Assembly: GCA_001801685.1 (NCBI GenBank)
Contig: MGYJ01000011.1
Location: 1 to 35,485, forward strand
Reading direction: 5' to 3'
From: Gammaproteobacteria bacterium RIFCSPHIGHO2_12_FULL_63_22
GTDB taxonomy: Bacteria > Pseudomonadota > Gammaproteobacteria > Xanthomonadales > Xanthomonadaceae
Length of the DNA: 35,485 nt
Made by a program: the position numbers and the translations under genes. Under the pieces are notes generated by a model. The model was not told the origin of the DNA and did not search any database. It saw only the letters and a list, made by a program, of their open reading frames with translations. This document shows, in pieces, positions 2,191 to 9,012 of this stretch (position 1 is its first letter; each line of letters starts with the position of its first letter).

Positions 2191-3492
2191 ATGAGCACCA
2201 CGCTTCCCACCGCCGACCAGTTGAAAGCCGACTGGGCCACCAATCCACGCTGGGCCGGCATTGAACGCGGCTATCCGGCTGAGGAAGTGGTGCGCCTTCG
2301 CGGCACCGTCGCCATCGAACATTCGCTGGCGCGCTTGGGCGCGGACAAGCTCTGGAAATACCTCGGCGAAAAGCCGTTCGTGAATGCGCTCGGCGCGCTC
2401 ACCGGCAACCAGGCCATGCAGCAGGTGAAGGCCGGCCTCAACGCCATCTATCTGTCGGGCTGGCAGGTCGCCGCGGATGCGAATGTCGCCGGTGAAATGT
2501 ATCCCGACCAGTCGCTGTATCCGGCCAATTCGGTGCCGCTGGTGGTCAAGCGCATCAACAACACGCTGTTGCGCGCCGACCAGCTCAACCACGCCGAAGG
2601 CAACCACGACACCGATTGGCTGCAGCCGATCGTCGCCGATGCCGAAGCCGGTTTTGGTGGCGTGCTGAATGCGTTCGAGCTGATGAAATCCATGATCGAG
2701 GCGGGCGCTGCTGGCGTCCACTTCGAAGATCAATTGGCGAGCGTGAAGAAGTGCGGCCACATGGGCGGCAAGGTGCTGGTGCCGACGCAGGAAGCCGTGC
2801 AGAAACTCATCGCCGCGCGCCTGGCCGCCGACGTGATGGGCGTGCCGACGTTGATCGTCGCGCGCACCGATGCCGAAGCGGCCGACCTGATCACCTCCGA
2901 CATCGATCCCAACGACCACGCCTTCATCACTGGCGAGCGCACGGTGGAAGGTTTCTACAAGACCAGGCCGGGACTCGACCAGGCCATCAGCCGCGGCATC
3001 GCCTACGCGCCGTACGCCGACCTCGTCTGGTGCGAGACCGGCAAGCCGGATCTGGAATTCGCGCGCAAGTTCGCCGCCGCCATCCATGCCAGGTATCCGG
3101 GCAAGATGCTGGCCTACAACTGCTCGCCTTCGTTCAACTGGAAGAAGAATCTCGACGATGCGACCATCGCGTCGTTCCAGCATGAGCTGGCCAAGCTCGG
3201 CTACAGGTTCCAGTTCATCACCCTGGCCGGTTTCCACTCGCTGAACTACTCGATGTTCAACCTCGCCTACGGCTATGCCCGCAACCAGATGAGCGCTTTC
3301 GTCGAATTGCAGGAAGCCGAATTCGCGGCAGCCGAGCGCGGCTTTACCGCGGTCAAGCACCAGCGCGAAGTGGGTACGGGCTACTTCGACTCGGTCACCC
3401 AGGCCATCCAGGGCGGCACCAGCTCGACCACGGCGCTCAAGGGTTCTACCGAAGAAGAGCAGTTCCAGGATGCCCCCGACAAGGCGGCATGA
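2191..3492 (+). CDS. aceA: Isocitrate lyase
   Basis: Cleaves isocitrate to glyoxylate and succinate, the first step of the glyoxylate shunt. The 433 residues fit the short bacterial type. The catalytic signature [11 protein letters not shown] is at 186-196 with the active-site Cys at 188. Other conserved stretches are [11 protein letters not shown] near the N-terminus, [10 protein letters not shown] (about 148-157, Mg-binding region), HFEDQ (177-181), [10 protein letters not shown] and [12 protein letters not shown] purine-rich AAGGACA stands about 8 bases before the ATG. It is the second gene of aceBA; the downstream gene starts after a 163-base gap, so transcription probably ends or weakens here. 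Confidence 0.98.
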
Positions 3493-3655: not shown

Positions 3656-4666
3656 GTGAACCAAGTTGATACCCATTCCTCCAGCCCCGCGCTCCGTGCC
3701 GAGGCCGGATTGCTGCCCAGCGTGCTCAATCCTGAGGAGCGCGCGCTGTTGACCAGCGCGGGAAACGCGCGCGCGGTGCTGCCGGGTGAACAACTGTTTC
3801 GTCGCGGCGACGATGCGCAATCCATGTTCCTGATCGAGTCGGGCGAGGTGCGACTGCGTTTCGAAGACGGCCTGGCCGACAAGATCCTGGGTGCCGGGCA
3901 GTACTTCGGCGAGCTGTCGGTCTTCGTCGGGCAGCACCAGCGTTTCGCCACCGCGGTGGTCGAATCGGAAGGCGTGCTGTTTGAAGTCTCGTCCGATGCA
4001 TTCTCGCGACTGATCGATCGCGCCCCGTCCGCCATCGCCCGCTTCATGCAGCGCAGCTTCACCTACCTGGTTACCGGCGAACAGCAGCTGATGCAAAGCT
4101 TGCGGCGGCGCAATGAAGACCTGATGCAGACGCTCGACACCCTGCGCCAGACCCGCAGCGAGTTGTCCGTTGCCCAGCAGCTGGTGCGGTCGGACGACCT
4201 GACCGGGCTGTCCAACCGTCGCGGCCTGTATCGCTTCCTGGACGAAAGCTCGCGTTATCCAATGGTGGGCAAGCGCCTTGCGCTGCTGCTGATCGACATC
4301 GACCACTTCAAGCGGCTCAACGACATGAGCGGCCACCTGGCAGGTGACTCGGCCCTGCGTGCCGTTGCCGACGAAGTGCGACGCATCGCCGGGCCGCTGG
4401 AATTGCCGTGCAGGCTCGGCGGCGATGAATTCGCCCTGGTGCTGCGCGTCGCCGACGAGGGTGACCTCGCCAACCGCGCGTTGGGCCTGATCGCCGCCAT
4501 CCGCGCCCTGCGCCTGCCCAGCCTGCGCGAACAGACCCTCACCATCAGCGTGGGCGGCGTGTTCTGCGCCGATCCGGGCGGCTGGTCGGCCTGGTACAGC
4601 CAGGGCGACCTGGCCCTTTACGAGGCCAAGAGCCGCGGAGGCGACCGCTGGCGACTTGCACTATAG
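3656..4666 (+). CDS. Cyclic-nucleotide-binding domain GGDEF protein (putative diguanylate cyclase)
   Basis: Predicted to make cyclic di-GMP in response to a bound cyclic mononucleotide. Counting from the GTG at 3656 (336 residues), a cNMP-binding (CAP effector-like) domain spans about 25-125. Its phosphate-binding cassette is FGELSVFVGQHQRFATAVV, including Glu86 and Arg96. A helical linker (about 130-180) leads to a GGDEF domain (about 180-336) with DDLTGLSNRRGLY, IDIDHFKRLND and an intact GGDEF at 255-259, so it is probably catalytically active. No RxxD inhibitory site precedes GGDEF. An upstream TTG at 3575 would add 27 unconvincing residues and sits before the putative promoter, so GTG was preferred. 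The next gene, 67 bases downstream, is a class III nucleotide cyclase. From memory, Xanthomonas campestris has the same pair (XC_0249/XC_0250) in a cGMP pathway. Confidence 0.88.
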   Translation: MNQVDTHSSSPALRAEAGLLPSVLNPEERALLTSAGNARAVLPGEQLFRRGDDAQSMFLIESGEVRLRFEDGLADKILGAGQYFGELSVFVGQHQRFATAVVESEGVLFEVSSDAFSRLIDRAPSAIARFMQRSFTYLVTGEQQLMQSLRRRNEDLMQTLDTLRQTRSELSVAQQLVRSDDLTGLSNRRGLYRFLDESSRYPMVGKRLALLLIDIDHFKRLNDMSGHLAGDSALRAVADEVRRIAGPLELPCRLGGDEFALVLRVADEGDLANRALGLIAAIRALRLPSLREQTLTISVGGVFCADPGGWSAWYSQGDLALYEAKSRGGDRWRLAL

Positions 4667-4733
4667 GGAGAGCCGCTGTCCTCACCGGGGCGAATTTGGC
4701 GTTCCCCGTACTACATAGACGTCAGCGCAGGTC

Positions 4734-7403
4734 ATGATCCCCAAGCCAAGCAGTTCGCCCCGGGCGTCCGTCGGCAGCACCGTCACGCCCATGTTGCGTG
4801 CCGTGCTGCTGGCCGATCTGGTGGACTCGACGGCCTTCATCGAGCGGTTCGGCGATGCCCGGGCGGCGGTGGCACTTCAGCGCCTCGACTTGCAGATCCG
4901 CGACTTGCTGGAGTTCACCGGGGGCCGACTGATCGACAAGGCCGACGGCCTGCTGGCGATCTTCGAACGCCCCATCCAGGCCGTTGATTTCGCGCTGCGC
5001 TACCAGCAAGCCCTGCGTCACTTCAGCAGCAGCGAAGGCTCCACCCTCACCGCACGGGTCGGCATCCATGTTGGCGAAGTGATGACCTGGAGCAATCCCG
5101 ACCAGGCCATCGCGGCGGGTGCCAAGCCTCTCGAAGTGGAAGGCCTGGCCAAGCCAATCGCGGCTCGCCTGATGTCGCTGGCGCTGCCCGGCCAGATCCT
5201 CATTTCAAGCATGGCGCAGAGTCTCGCCCAGCGCGCCCAGGCCGAACTGGGCGAACGCAGCCAGCGCCTGCGCTGGATGGTGCATGGCCGCTACCGCTTC
5301 AAGGGCGTGCCCGCGCCCTTGCTGGTGCACGAGGTGGGCGAGGTCGGATTTGCGCCCCTGGTCGAGCCGCCGTCGGGCCAGAAGGTCTGGCGCGAGTTGC
5401 CGGTGTGGCGTCGGCCGCCGGTGGTGGTGGCCGAAATCCTACTGTTCCTGCTGGTCGGCGGCTTCTACGCGTACAGCGTCCTGCGCAGCCCGCCCGCCGT
5501 AGCCTTCGGCGAACGCGACTGGGTGGTGATCGGCGACATGAGCAACTTCACTGCCGACCCGCGCCTGGAGGACTCGCTGGAAACGGCGTTCCGCATCGGC
5601 CTGGAACAATCGCGCTTCGTGAACATCGTGCCGGAACTGAAAGTGCAGAGCGCACTCGAACGCATGGGGCGCGACAGCCAGACGTCCATCGATCGCGCCA
5701 TCGGCAGCGAGATCGCCATCCGCGAAGGGGCGCGGGTGCTCTTGCTGCCGACGGTGGCGGAAGTGGGTGGCAAGCTCCGCGTCAGCGTCGAGGTGGTGGA
5801 CCCGAACACGCAGGCCACGGTTTACGCGCAGACGGCGGAAGGGCGCGGCGTCAACTCGCTGCTGGCGTCGCTGGACACCGTGGCGGTCGGCATGCGCGAA
5901 AAGTTCGGCGAGTCTGTGAAGGACATCGAGGCCGGCAGCAAGCCCTTGCCCGAGGCAACCACGCGAGATCTCAACGCCTTGCGCGCCTACAGCCTGGGGC
6001 AAAAATTGCGTAGCGAGGGTCGCCTCGAAGAAGCCATTGCGCTGCACGAGGAAGCGATCAAGCTGGACCCGAATTTCGCCATGGCCTTCATCGGACTGGG
6101 GAAATTGCGCCTGGCTTCGGGCGACGACGCGGAATACTTCCGGTTGCTCGGGAAAGCCAAGGCCCTTCGCTCGCGCCTGACCCATCGGGAAATGTTGTTC
6201 CTCGATGCCAACCTGGCAACCTACGGTCCGGCGCCTGAAGCGCTCGCCAAATGGCGCCTGCTTGCCGGTCTCTATCCCGATGAATACCAGGGCTACTACA
6301 ACTACAGCCTGACGTCGTGGTTCCACAGCTATCGTTACAAGGAGGCGCTCGAGTACTTGCGCCCCGCGATGGTGGCGCGAAACCCGAGGCTGCGCTCTGC
6401 CTACTACCTGCAGGGCGTGCTGCAGACGATCCTTGAGCAACCCGGCGATGCGCTGGCCTCATTCCAGACTTACCAGTCGCTGGGTGGCGCGGATTTCAAC
6501 CGTCACCATGCCGAGGCATTTGCGACGATGCGTCGCTTCGACGAGGCGGAAAAACAGCAGGCCTTGCGAAAGCGCACCAATGTCGCCAATGCCGACTTCC
6601 CGCAACGGGTCGACGAAGCCATCTTTCCCCTGGACCGCGGCCGTTGGGACGAAGGTGTCGCGGCCATGAAGCAGCTGGCGGCTGAGTCGCACCTTGCCTC
6701 CTCCGATAGCGGACGCAGGATGCGAATGATGCAGTTGTCGCTCAGTGGGATAGCGGGCGACCCAGAGTTGCGCCGCGAACTTTCCGATTTTGTCACCAGT
6801 CAATCCAAATGGCTGGACAGCGGCAGCGCGTTGACCCAGATCGGCGATACGTTTTCCGTACTGATGGCAGGCGTGCTTGCCGCCGGAAATGGTGATCCGG
6901 CGCTCGGGCGTCGCGCGCTTGCAATGGTGCAGTCGCGGGCATTGGAAAGCGGCTATCCGGCCTTGCTCAATGCAGTCGCCATGCTTGAAACCGAACTGCT
7001 CATCAACCAAGGCAAGCCCGACCGTGCCGTTGAAAGACTGCAACCATTGCACGACGGCAACGAGCTATACCTGAGCCATGAAGTGATGATGCGGGCGCTG
7101 GCGGCCAGCGGCCGCAACCTGGAGGCGGCGAAGGAAGCCGAGTGGCTGTCAAGCCATCGCGGTCGGGCCTACGCCGAGTTCAATATCGACCAGGTCTTGA
7201 ACGCGTCCAATGTTGCGCACAGTAATCTTGCCCTGTTGTCGGGCGCCGAATACCTCGCCGCGGCCGGAAAACTCGAGCCCGCGCGTGTCCGGCTAGGCGT
7301 CTTCCTCCGCAACTGGCCGAACGCGCGAACCCTGCCCTTCCTGCGCGATCGCATGCGCAAGCTGGACGCGGCGCTCGAAAACCCGGCGCCGCGCAAGACC
7401 TGA
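4734..7403 (+). CDS. Membrane-anchored class III nucleotide cyclase with TolB-like and TPR region (peptide-modification-system cyclase type)
   Basis: An 889-residue protein. Residues about 20-160 form a class III adenylate/guanylate cyclase domain, with ADLVDSTAFIERFGD carrying metal-binding Asp28, GGRLIDKADGLLAIFE with Asp71, and RVGIHVGEV at about 108-116. One transmembrane helix follows (about 229-250). Then comes a TolB/FlgO-like domain (about 262-395: DWVVIGDMSNFTADPRLEDS and ARVLLLPTVAEV). Tetratricopeptide-type repeats begin at about 415 (AYSLGQKLRSEGRLEEAIAL) and fill the C-terminal half, probably outside the cytoplasm. The usual NxxxR transition-state motif reads PIAAR (141-145), so the Asn is replaced by Pro, and the lysine that fixes adenine specificity is not in its normal place. 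Product and activity are therefore open. I recall an NCBI family 'putative peptide modification system cyclase' with this layout. The neighbours support it: a cNMP-GGDEF receptor upstream, a peptide and a SagB-like enzyme downstream. Confidence 0.85.
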   Translation: MIPKPSSSPRASVGSTVTPMLRAVLLADLVDSTAFIERFGDARAAVALQRLDLQIRDLLEFTGGRLIDKADGLLAIFERPIQAVDFALRYQQALRHFSSSEGSTLTARVGIHVGEVMTWSNPDQAIAAGAKPLEVEGLAKPIAARLMSLALPGQILISSMAQSLAQRAQAELGERSQRLRWMVHGRYRFKGVPAPLLVHEVGEVGFAPLVEPPSGQKVWRELPVWRRPPVVVAEILLFLLVGGFYAYSVLRSPPAVAFGERDWVVIGDMSNFTADPRLEDSLETAFRIGLEQSRFVNIVPELKVQSALERMGRDSQTSIDRAIGSEIAIREGARVLLLPTVAEVGGKLRVSVEVVDPNTQATVYAQTAEGRGVNSLLASLDTVAVGMREKFGESVKDIEAGSKPLPEATTRDLNALRAYSLGQKLRSEGRLEEAIALHEEAIKLDPNFAMAFIGLGKLRLASGDDAEYFRLLGKAKALRSRLTHREMLFLDANLATYGPAPEALAKWRLLAGLYPDEYQGYYNYSLTSWFHSYRYKEALEYLRPAMVARNPRLRSAYYLQGVLQTILEQPGDALASFQTYQSLGGADFNRHHAEAFATMRRFDEAEKQQALRKRTNVANADFPQRVDEAIFPLDRGRWDEGVAAMKQLAAESHLASSDSGRRMRMMQLSLSGIAGDPELRRELSDFVTSQSKWLDSGSALTQIGDTFSVLMAGVLAAGNGDPALGRRALAMVQSRALESGYPALLNAVAMLETELLINQGKPDRAVERLQPLHDGNELYLSHEVMMRALAASGRNLEAAKEAEWLSSHRGRAYAEFNIDQVLNASNVAHSNLALLSGAEYLAAAGKLEPARVRLGVFLRNWPNARTLPFLRDRMRKLDAALENPAPRKT

Positions 7404-7411
7404 AACGCCTG

Positions 7412-7430
7412 GCCGGGCATGCTGCCCGGC
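7412..7430. terminator. Hairpin between convergent cyclase and peptide genes
   Basis: GCCGGGCA (7412-7419) and TGCCCGGC (7423-7430) form a perfect 8-base stem with a 3-base loop, in the 43-base gap between the cyclase stop and the stop of the minus-strand peptide gene. There is no T-run on either side, so it may act as a bidirectional transcript end only weakly or with help. Confidence 0.4.
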
Positions 7431-7446
7431 GGCCGCCGCAGATGGA

Positions 7447-7761
7447 CTACTCGGCGCAGATGTCGAACTGGTGGAAGATCAGCACGGACGCATCGCCGGT
7501 CCGTTCGTATTCGTCGTAGGTGGCGAGCATCGCTTCGGTCTGTTCGGCAATCTTTTCCGGGCTGGCGAGACCGCCGCGCAAATTTTCCAACGGCAATACC
7601 GGATCGCGCCCCGGTATGCCGCGATCGGCGTCGGGTGTTTCGTGGCCGATGCTCTGCAACGCCCCCCGGACGCTGTGATCAAAGCGTTCGCGAAACTTGG
7701 GCTCGGTTGCGAGTTTCGTCAGTAGCACGCGTGCTACTTCCCTGGAAATGATGCTGGTCAT
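7447..7761 (-). CDS. Putative ribosomally made, modified peptide with nitrile-hydratase-like leader
   Basis: A 104-residue protein. Residues 8-40 (VARVLLTKLATEPKFRERF, then SVRGALQSIGHE) resemble the nitrile-hydratase-type leader (NHLP) of RiPP precursors: an amphipathic helix with an LLxKLAxxPxFRxRF pattern and a following AL. A Pro/Asp/Gly-rich hinge (43-57) leads to LRGGLAS with a Gly-Gly at 63-64. Then comes an acidic helical tail ending FHQFDICAE with the only Cys at 102. The start is well supported: AGGGGA stands 6 bases before the ATG and a promoter-like TTGCGC-N17-TAGCCT lies upstream. It faces the cyclase (convergent) and diverges from the SagB-like dehydrogenase. I recall an NCBI family of 'putative modified peptides' found in this context. 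Whether it is cleaved after GG or modified at all is unknown. Confidence 0.75.
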   Translation of the reverse strand: MTSIISREVARVLLTKLATEPKFRERFDHSVRGALQSIGHETPDADRGIPGRDPVLPLENLRGGLASPEKIAEQTEAMLATYDEYERTGDASVLIFHQFDICAE

Positions 7762-7797
7762 CCGGATTCCCCTGCTACCCCTGATTGGAGCGTGCTC

Positions 7798-7826
7798 AGG
7801 CTAGCGGCTGCATCACGGCAGCGCAA
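7798..7826 (-). promoter_or_regulatory. Putative promoter of the peptide gene
   Basis: On the minus strand, TTGCGC (7821-7826) and TAGCCT (7798-7803) are separated by exactly 17 bases. The -10 is about 37 bases before the peptide ATG, which has a good Shine-Dalgarno. A CCTGA/TCAGG imperfect dyad lies just downstream of the -10. The spacing is ideal; the hexamers are moderate matches to the consensus. Confidence 0.45.
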
Positions 7827-7838
7827 GAATTTCTCCGG

Positions 7839-7852
7839 CACAATCCCGGCCA
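7839..7852 (+). promoter_or_regulatory. Putative -10 box implying leaderless transcript of the dehydrogenase gene
   Basis: CACAAT (7839-7844) ends 7 bases before the ATG at 7852, and no Shine-Dalgarno is present. This places the expected transcription start at or within a base or two of the A of ATG, suggesting a leaderless mRNA. No clear -35 is present. Confidence 0.35.
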
Positions 7853-9012
7853 TGATCTTGAAGCGGCCCACCCTGTTGCTGATCGAGCGCGCCCCTCCGC
7901 GCCCGCTGTCGATGCAGCAACTGTTGTCGAAGGACGATTCGGCCAGCGGCTGGCGCGCACTCGCACCCCACCTGGGTCACGAAGTCCCCCTGCAGTTGGC
8001 TGACCTGGCCGTGTTCGATGCATTGGCCGAGGATGAAGCCGCCTCGCGCGCAGACTTGTCGCTGCGCTTCGGCACCGAGCGCATTGACTACCTGGTGGAC
8101 AGCGGACTGCTGATTGGCGACCACGCGGACCACGAACCATTGCGCCTGCGCGACCGGCTGCTGAAGGACACAGGCTGGTGGACACCTGCCGCCGTGGCGC
8201 ACAGCTTCGGTCGTTGGCAGGGCATCGACGTGGACGCCGACCAGAAACGCGTGGGCAAGCGCACGCTTGGCAGCCTGATAAGGCAGCATGGCCCGCCGCC
8301 TCCCGAGGCATTGGAGTTGCGCGCCAGGCAGGACTGGCTGGTGCTGCCCGCAGCGCGCAAGACCGCCCTGGACAAGCTGCTCGTCCAGCGCACCACCTGC
8401 CGAAATTTCGATCCGGAGCATCGACTTCCCGCGGCCGACCTGGCCAGCCTGATGCATCGGGTTTTCGCGGCGCAGGCCACGCAGGAACTGGCGCCCGGTG
8501 CCGTTGCGCTAAAGAAGAACAGTCCGTCCGGCGGCGGCCTGCATCCGATCGAGGCCTATCTTCTGGTACAGCGAGTGGAAGGCGTACCGCCCGGCCTGTA
8601 CCACTACCACAGCACCGGCCACGCACTGCAGGTGCTGGGCCTTCCGGACGCCGACCAGATCGCAGCCATGGCCAAGGAACTGGTCGCCGGCCAGGCGTGG
8701 TTCGCCAACGCACCGGTGCTGGTGCTGATGGCAGCGCGCTTCAAGCGCAACTTCTGGAAGTATCGCAACCACGCCAAGGCCTGGCGGGTGATCCAGCTCG
8801 ATGCCGGCCATCTGTCGCAGAACCTGTACCTCACCGCGACCGAAATGGGCTACGGCGCCTTCATTACGGGTGCCATCAACGACGAATGCGCCGAGCGCCT
8901 GTTCGAACTGGATGGACTGTCCACGGGGGCCATCGCCGTATGTGGTTTTGGCCGGCGTATTGGTCCGCCGGTGGCTGTCGAATTTGATCCCTTGGGCAAG
9001 GCCGTGCGCTAG
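7852..9012 (+). CDS. SagB-like FMN-dependent peptide maturation dehydrogenase
   Basis: A nitroreductase-fold oxidoreductase of the SagB/thiazole-oxazole dehydrogenase type, 386 residues from ATG 7852. The C-terminal half carries the family marks: RTTCRNFDPEHRLPAADLASL at 180-200 split by FMN-contacting residues, NSPSGGGLHPIEAYLLV at 223-239, LYHYHSTGHALQVL at about 249-262, KYRNHAKAWRVIQLDAGHLS from 303 followed by QNLYL, and GYGAFITGAINDE. Residues about 44-92 look like a small winged-helix-type segment, and about 100-175 is a linker not seen in typical nitroreductases. SagB enzymes oxidise azolines to azoles in peptides, but no YcaO cyclodehydratase is present here, so the real reaction is open. 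An upstream GTG (7792) would add 20 residues before the putative -10. The neighbouring minus-strand peptide is the likely substrate (inference). Confidence 0.85.
   Translation: MILKRPTLLLIERAPPRPLSMQQLLSKDDSASGWRALAPHLGHEVPLQLADLAVFDALAEDEAASRADLSLRFGTERIDYLVDSGLLIGDHADHEPLRLRDRLLKDTGWWTPAAVAHSFGRWQGIDVDADQKRVGKRTLGSLIRQHGPPPPEALELRARQDWLVLPAARKTALDKLLVQRTTCRNFDPEHRLPAADLASLMHRVFAAQATQELAPGAVALKKNSPSGGGLHPIEAYLLVQRVEGVPPGLYHYHSTGHALQVLGLPDADQIAAMAKELVAGQAWFANAPVLVLMAARFKRNFWKYRNHAKAWRVIQLDAGHLSQNLYLTATEMGYGAFITGAINDECAERLFELDGLSTGAIAVCGFGRRIGPPVAVEFDPLGKAVR

Follow-up and report, generated by a model that had tools for sequence, protein, structure and literature searches.

A linked set of cyclase sensor half, NHLP-related peptide and SagB-like dehydrogenase that switches alleles over a conserved cyclase and GGDEF backbone in Xanthomonas and relatives

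Peptide pheromone loci with pherotypes are exemplified by agr and ComQXP/ComCDE. In Xanthomonas campestris, XC_0250 makes cyclic GMP (cGMP), and cGMP bound by XC_0249 raises the synthesis of cyclic di-GMP (c-di-GMP), both proteins affecting biofilm and virulence, according to the accessible parts of the paper describing them (PMC3770947). The same parts report adjacent homologs of the pair in xanthomonads and Stenotrophomonas and treat the TPR part of XC_0250 as a domain of uncharacterised function, as does a 2019 review; a term search of that text found no mention of peptide, operon, XC_0248, XC_0251 or XC_0252. Here we describe orthologs of this pair in a stretch of 35,485 nucleotides (nt; ‘the window’, contig MGYJ01000011.1) from Gammaproteobacteria bacterium RIFCSPHIGHO2_12_FULL_63_22, a 4.26-Mb draft genome of the Xanthomonas/Lysobacter order, where they lie beside genes for an NHLP-related peptide and a SagB/McbC-like flavin dehydrogenase. 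What is new is a switchable module, seen in relatives of the window: peptide, dehydrogenase and cyclase sensor half change together over a conserved GGDEF protein and a conserved cyclase domain.

The window genes resemble XC_0250/XC_0249 in being adjacent (67 nt apart), in the length of the cyclase (889 vs 886 amino acids), in six tested cyclase residues and in four of the five cGMP-site residues of the GGDEF protein. They differ from the pair as published in that the unit also includes a peptide and a SagB-like enzyme, with which the TPR part changes allele in the relatives. NCBI families exist for the peptide (TIGR04509, related to NHLP ribosomally synthesised and post-translationally modified peptides, RiPPs), the cyclase (TIGR04510, ‘peptide modification system cyclase’) and the dehydrogenase (TIGR04511, ‘peptide maturation dehydrogenase’), and all three are over cut-off here, but the names are silent on function, GGDEF partner, XC_0250 and allele switching. 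Another NHLP-clan small protein beside a SagB-type dehydrogenase gene is found in the Os1348-Os1351 cluster of Pseudomonas sp. Os17, for which the authors raise a possible signalling role; a cyclase is not reported in the accessible part of that paper (PMC7726476), and the window peptide is far under the cut-off of the Os1348 model (NF038399; 14.6 vs 40 bits). In the open-access literature searched, we found no link of the cGMP pathway to the peptide and SagB-like families. An earlier reading of the window made from the sequence alone (the sequence-only reading) had joined the published Xanthomonas pair to these NCBI families, and that connection was borne out.

For allele switching 30 Xanthomonas loci were considered; L166, in which every gene is disrupted, and L172, which has remnants, were excluded. 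The peptide tails of the remaining 28 form six types, which were set by eye, with L163 split from type C after clustering of the sensors, so that the identity contrasts between types are sharpened. Between types, the GGDEF protein and the cyclase domain average 90% and 93% identity, compared with 92% and 96% within types. Sensor halves, by contrast, are at least 73% identical within types, with a mean of 37% and a maximum of 56% between them. For the peptide tails the corresponding values are at least 70%, 29% and 44%, and for the dehydrogenase at least 73%, 44% and 66% (broken L170 excluded; its inclusion lowers the within-type minimum to 24%). Sensor half, peptide and dehydrogenase are replaced together as one block, and the GGDEF protein and cyclase domain are conserved.

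The borders of the block can be seen in the DNA. In the pair L149/L025 the flank, the GGDEF gene and the cyclase domain are 98% identical, identity is about 45% from cyclase codon 199 through the dehydrogenase, and it is back to 98% at 220 nt past the dehydrogenase. All seven pairs compared break at cyclase codons 191-213 (from 98% to about 45%), before the membrane helix, and in six of them identity recovers at 36-243 nt beyond the end of the dehydrogenase frame. The pair L158/L152 is the exception, and the dehydrogenase of L152 has a large insertion. On the tree of backbone DNA the types require 11 changes (least possible, 5), shuffled types require 12.2 on average and as few as 11 in 33 of 200 shufflings, and sister pairs of different type occur on starred branches. 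Synonymous divergence (pS) is 0.43-0.61 for sensor, peptide and dehydrogenase vs 0.34-0.39 for the GGDEF protein and cyclase domain, as if the switching alleles were older than their backbones or moved more. Type A sensors are 0.54-0.56 identical to that of L006, from another genus, which is above the between-type average, although the cyclase domains share merely 0.73-0.76.

The wider comparison comprised 152 loci, 129 of them with exactly one of each gene; removal of 21 duplicates left 108 distinct loci for pairwise statistics, the figures of which are descriptions and not tests, as the pairs are not independent. Rank correlations of pairwise identity were 0.76 for cyclase domain and GGDEF protein, 0.80 for sensor and dehydrogenase and 0.61 for sensor and peptide, compared with 0.51 for the sensor and its own cyclase domain. 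The cyclase protein is thereby cut in two by two correlation blocks, cyclase domain/GGDEF vs sensor/dehydrogenase/peptide, and with the former block removed the sensor-dehydrogenase correlation is still 0.73. Among 361 pairs with close cyclase domains and GGDEF proteins (305 within the Xanthomonas group and 56 outside it), the sensors are less than 60% alike in 222, and in every one of these the tails are less than 55% alike; tails reach at least 55% in 135 of the other 139, and four pairs combine a similar sensor with divergent tails. The pattern extends beyond Xanthomonas: the GGDEF proteins and cyclase domains of L001/L010 are 0.99 and 0.98 identical, with 0.43 for the sensor, 0.57 for the dehydrogenase and 0.42 for the tail, and the values for L006/L014 are 0.98, 0.99, 0.37, 0.51 and 0.46, respectively. 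The window is without a close relative in the set (nearest GGDEF protein, 0.74), and the switch is seen in its relatives, not in the window itself; against three group mates its GGDEF protein scores 0.71-0.74 and cyclase domain 0.63-0.66, with 0.37-0.39 for the sensor, 0.38-0.43 for the dehydrogenase and 0.09-0.22 for the tail.

Gene losses follow the two modules. In L139 and L140 the gene order is aceB-aceA-GGDEF-yifB, and cyclase, peptide and dehydrogenase are absent without trace. Conversely, L043 (genome G091) has aceB-aceA, sensor, dehydrogenase and a strongly diverged cyclase domain, with no GGDEF match in the genome. Its cyclase keeps both aligned Asp residues, has DQ in place of DG and lacks about 12 residues before A150, and five tandem, nearly identical peptide gene copies stand beside the dehydrogenase (L043:4526-6711, minus strand). 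The metal aspartates are lost in L040, the second copy of genome G059.

The four genes form a conserved unit. TIGR04510, TIGR04511 and TIGR04509 are over cut-off in an identical set of 43 out of 200 genomes of the order, with one of the 43 peptide matches (G136) reading through a stop codon. The cNMP-GGDEF profile scores at least 418 bits in 42 of these genomes and in 2 of the remaining 157 (G106 and G111), with a third, G030, at 255 bits. These whole-genome searches scored a subset of first-look candidates, namely four per genome in one cassette-family search and ten per genome for cNMP-GGDEF. Across the phylum, TIGR04511 is over cut-off in 6 of 349 genomes, all belonging to the same order. 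Within the Xanthomonas group (35 genomes) 28 have all four genes, two of them with disrupted genes (G549 and G566), five have none, G572 is without the dehydrogenase and G568 has mere remnants of peptide and dehydrogenase. The sequence-only reading regarded the genes as one system, and both the co-occurrence of the families in all 43 genomes of the order sample that have the cyclase and the conserved layout uphold it. Peptide and dehydrogenase, far from being missing in most genomes with the signalling pair, accompany the cyclase in each of these 43 and occur in 28 of the 29 Xanthomonas-group genomes with GGDEF and cyclase.

The layout of the four genes is not due to chance. The 44 loci taken around cyclase matches in the order sample contain 46 cyclase copies. 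A GGDEF gene precedes 38 of them on the same strand, a peptide gene follows 42, on the opposite strand every time, and a dehydrogenase gene follows 41, on the same strand in 36 and on the opposite strand in five, where the flipped gene still adjoins the peptide. In 80 named loci, chosen from 451 as those most similar to L001 and hence biased to Xanthomonas and kin, 81 cyclase copies are accompanied by the GGDEF gene in 79 cases, the peptide in 79 and the dehydrogenase in 77, with the peptide antisense in 77 of 79 (L102 and L121 have some same-strand copies). One record of the collection, L076, is titled Bacillus subtilis SK7B5 and holds a Stenotrophomonas-like copy of the locus, which is likely contamination or mislabelling. 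Genes for malate synthase and isocitrate lyase, which precede the set in 34 of the 44 loci, and yifB and amtB, downstream in some, were considered as parts of the system and rejected; they look like a shared chromosomal position, because L028, L032, L038 and L039 keep the four-gene set without them. According to a passage of a genome paper, X. fragariae and others lack the glyoxylate-shunt region XCC0232/XCC0240.

The conserved half of the system looks like the published pathway. The residues tested in XC_0250 (D41, D71, L73, A150, L157 and A161) are identical letters in the window cyclase and are kept in 124, 126, 98, 115, 125 and 126 of 128 cyclase homologs, respectively. The cGMP-site residues F73, E90, H98 and E146 of XC_0249 are kept in 119 of 119 homologs, window included, and the GGDEF motif is intact in all of them; the N145 position is N in 103, S in 11 and G in 5. 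PDB chain 5h5o was taken as the XC_0249 domain from seven matching residues (PMC3770947 names 4KG1), and the best cNMP-domain match to it among the 35 Xanthomonas-group genomes is 97% identical. As the tested residues are largely conserved, this cassette seems to have the published cGMP pathway as its output arm, and production of cGMP by the window cyclase and a rise of c-di-GMP via its GGDEF protein are predicted.

The switching half of the cyclase is predicted to lie outside the membrane. More Lys and Arg residues precede than follow the hydropathy peak in 108 of 108 cyclase homologs, which places the N-terminus inside and the sensor half, by prediction, in the periplasm. In an AlphaFold2 model of the window cyclase (mean predicted local distance difference test score 90.6), the sensor half consists of a TolB/LpoB-like alpha/beta domain (residues ~262-390) followed by a helical TPR solenoid (~395-882). 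TPR families match most of 28 homologs scanned and LpoB (PF13036) matches three; the fold-match list for the full-length protein was filled by the cyclase domain. Sensor halves also occur in other contexts. In genome G073 one is fused to a protein-kinase-like N-terminus instead of a cyclase (L044:2357-5281, minus strand; 54% to the other copy of that genome), on an 8-kb contig without peptide or dehydrogenase. A second, sensor-only frame of about 706 codons follows the dehydrogenase in L013 (11240-13357, plus strand) and L087 (9797-11914, plus strand); the two frames are 97% alike and 31-32% identical to the full cyclase beside them. Genome G110 has tandem cyclase-peptide-dehydrogenase modules behind one GGDEF gene (L031:4787-14710, minus strand), their cyclase domains being 72% and their sensors 39% identical.

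The peptide and dehydrogenase have a RiPP-type arrangement, with an NHLP-clan precursor peptide adjoining a dehydrogenase gene. TIGR04509 and the Os1348 NHLP clan models match 25 of 25 peptide homologs scanned (E≤0.1), and the peptide profile matches nitrile hydratase alpha (E 3.8e-5). Within types, the Xanthomonas alleles have dN/dS ratios of 0.13-0.19 in the leader and 0.04-0.11 in the tail, by which the peptide is under purifying selection. Cys was rejected as a general modification target, since 13 of 108 peptides have none. The dehydrogenase shares the McbC/ThcOx/BmdC/SagB azoline oxidase fold over most of its length, matches the Nitroreductase and SagB domain models and has an invariant K-Y, which we take to be catalytic. 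It differs from those enzymes in that YcaO cyclodehydratase was not matched at E≤1e-10 in its own genome, in line with the sequence-only reading, which saw none nearby, nor in 41 of the 43 cassette genomes (two have one). Canonical thiazole/oxazole-modified microcin chemistry was accordingly rejected for this genome, and no azoline substrate is expected for the dehydrogenase. Peptidase C39 had no match at E≤1e-6 in the own genome and at least one in 26 of the 43 cassette genomes; with 17 lacking a match, a C39 exporter was rejected as obligate partner. The dehydrogenase is disrupted or decayed in L152, L166, L170 and L172 of the Xanthomonas group, other genes also being affected in L166 and L172.

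We read the locus as a peptide-sensing system in which a receptor guanylate cyclase has the processed peptide as its ligand and a swappable specificity module is set on a conserved output module, and we give this reading a probability of roughly 0.58. The SagB-like flavoenzyme would recognise and process the NHLP-related peptide, the C-terminal part of which would reach the periplasm and, as the co-switching of alleles suggests, act on the TolB-like/TPR sensor half of the membrane cyclase. The cyclase domain would then make cGMP, as published for XC_0250, and cGMP would bind the cNMP domain of the GGDEF protein and bring c-di-GMP up, as published for XC_0249. The specificity module would thus comprise sensor half, peptide and dehydrogenase, exchanged as a block, and the output module the cyclase domain and the GGDEF protein. 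Modification, export and sensor binding of the peptide are all inferred; a peptide that varies with an enzyme inside the cell and with a sensor outside it is most simply a messenger between them. As in agr and ComQXP/ComCDE, a linked variable set of peptide, processing enzyme and sensor domain is combined with an output that stays conserved; unlike in those loci, the receptor would be a one-helix membrane guanylate cyclase and not a histidine kinase, the bacteria are Gram-negative, and no exporter is evident.

Several observations weigh against this reading. With the backbone removed, the correlation of sensor and peptide tail is moderate (0.44), and the dehydrogenases are at least 60% alike in 14 of the 222 pairs with divergent sensors. 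The peptide leader also differs by type (0.39 between vs 0.77 within). The window peptide is a weak member of its family, barely over the cut-off (Table 1) and without the family DD and the LASK lysine; no signal peptide, protease or exporter is evident (C39 was searched, without a match in the own genome). At the position of N145, one of the two guanine-reading residues, the window has G. Finally, part of the pattern could arise from linkage alone: as the three switching genes lie side by side, one recombination tract could move all of them without contact between their products, and the set holds no split-module locus that would break the linkage.

Linkage is the core of an alternative in which diversifying selection acts on one part alone, for example the periplasmic sensor as a target of phages or predators, and the adjacent parts are carried with it. 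The adjacency of sensor, peptide and dehydrogenase fits such hitchhiking, as do the divergence of leader and intergenic DNA and the pS values, which make the alleles look older than the backbone. Yet the break lies inside a protein, at a domain border, in seven of seven pairs, and across the 108 loci, which come from many genera, the sensor is far better correlated with the dehydrogenase (0.80) than with its own, more tightly linked cyclase domain (0.51), for which reasons linkage alone is disfavoured. The dehydrogenase, moreover, flips orientation (5 of 41) and yet stays by the peptide, and the families co-occur genome-wide. We regard hitchhiking as unlikely.

An improbable alternative is a competition module, in which the processed peptide would be a narrow-spectrum bacteriocin, the matching sensor half its receptor or immunity factor and the cyclase a reporter of attack by non-kin, with warfare keeping the alleles diverse. 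Toxin-immunity loci also show linked polymorphism of peptide, enzyme and receptor-like parts, alleles are common to different genera (type A sensors and L006), and orphan immunity could account for the additional sensor-only frames of L013 and L087. However, the locus has no exporter or toxin-like features, the sensor is fused to a conserved second-messenger enzyme, and the tails are strongly constrained within types, at the dN/dS ratios given above.

The sequence-only reading had a cyclic nucleotide and c-di-GMP report or control production, modification or sensing of the peptide. In the corresponding alternative, cGMP and c-di-GMP control the production or modification of a peptide that is an unrelated end product. 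The shared locus agrees with it, and second messengers often control secondary products, but it leaves unexplained why peptide and dehydrogenase should vary with the sensor half instead of with the cyclase domain or GGDEF protein; the allele-switch pattern favours the peptide controlling the messengers, and the reverse appears very unlikely. Scarcely credible is a cytoplasmic complex in which the unexported peptide, as a small regulatory partner, and the flavoenzyme, as a redox sensor, act on the cyclase, since all 108 homologs are predicted to have the co-varying half on the far side of the membrane, out of reach of a cytoplasmic flavoenzyme, even though the missing signal peptide and exporter, purifying selection along the whole peptide and the 13 of 108 peptides without Cys (hence without a universal heterocyclisable residue of that kind) would suit it.

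In the window itself (Table 1) the four genes are present where the sequence-only reading had them, with cyclase, peptide and dehydrogenase all above the NCBI cut-offs. A run of all four genes in a single direction was not supported: the peptide gene is antisense to its neighbours, convergent with the cyclase gene (43 nt from stop to stop) and divergent from the dehydrogenase gene, and with the peptide on the minus strand and the others on the plus strand the four genes are not one operon. A GTG at 7792 lies upstream of the dehydrogenase ATG. The gene at 544-2172 presumably encodes malate synthase, judging by its sequence, and has the same position as malate synthase in relatives.

Table 1. 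Features of the four-gene locus and its neighbours in the window
Feature	Position	Strand	Evidence or remark
Isocitrate lyase gene, upstream	2191-3489		family search
cNMP-binding and GGDEF diguanylate cyclase protein	3656-4666	+	PF00027 62.2 bits, PF00990 104.3 bits; XC_0249-type ortholog
Class III nucleotide cyclase, membrane, TIGR04510	4734-7403	+	910.7 bits (cut-off 400); XC_0250-type ortholog, 889 amino acids
Cyclase domain, cytoplasmic, residues ~17-205	4782-5348	+	
Single membrane helix of cyclase, residues ~228-250	5415-5483	+	helix in AlphaFold2 model; hydropathy peak
Predicted periplasmic sensor half of cyclase	5517-7400	+	secondary structure; TPR/LpoB matches; allele-switching part
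NHLP-related peptide, 104 amino acids, TIGR04509	7447-7761	-	35.8 bits (cut-off 34, barely over)
Divergent intergenic stretch, 90 nt, peptide start to dehydrogenase ATG	7762-7851	.	sequence; presumed site of both promoters (peptide and dehydrogenase)
SagB/McbC-like flavin dehydrogenase, TIGR04511	7852 (ATG)-9012	+	460.5 bits (cut-off 240); N-terminal part non-nitroreductase
GFA-family gene and yifB, downstream of dehydrogenase		-	

It is possible, and we propose it tentatively, that Xanthomonas and relatives both produce and sense a ribosomal peptide that is modified by the dehydrogenase and exists in pherotypes, and that this peptide gates a receptor guanylate cyclase and through it cGMP, c-di-GMP, biofilm and, in plant pathogens, virulence. 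If so, the input signal missing from the XC_0250/XC_0249 pathway would be this peptide, and the system would be a functional parallel to the natriuretic-peptide receptors of animals. The locus gives a candidate ligand and a candidate processing enzyme for the cGMP pathway of Xanthomonas virulence and biofilm, the only one described there, and natural allele swaps already separate sensing from output. Should the peptide-sensing reading be right, pherotype peptide signalling would extend to plant-associated and environmental bacteria, a large group, and SagB-type enzymes would have a new role without YcaO.

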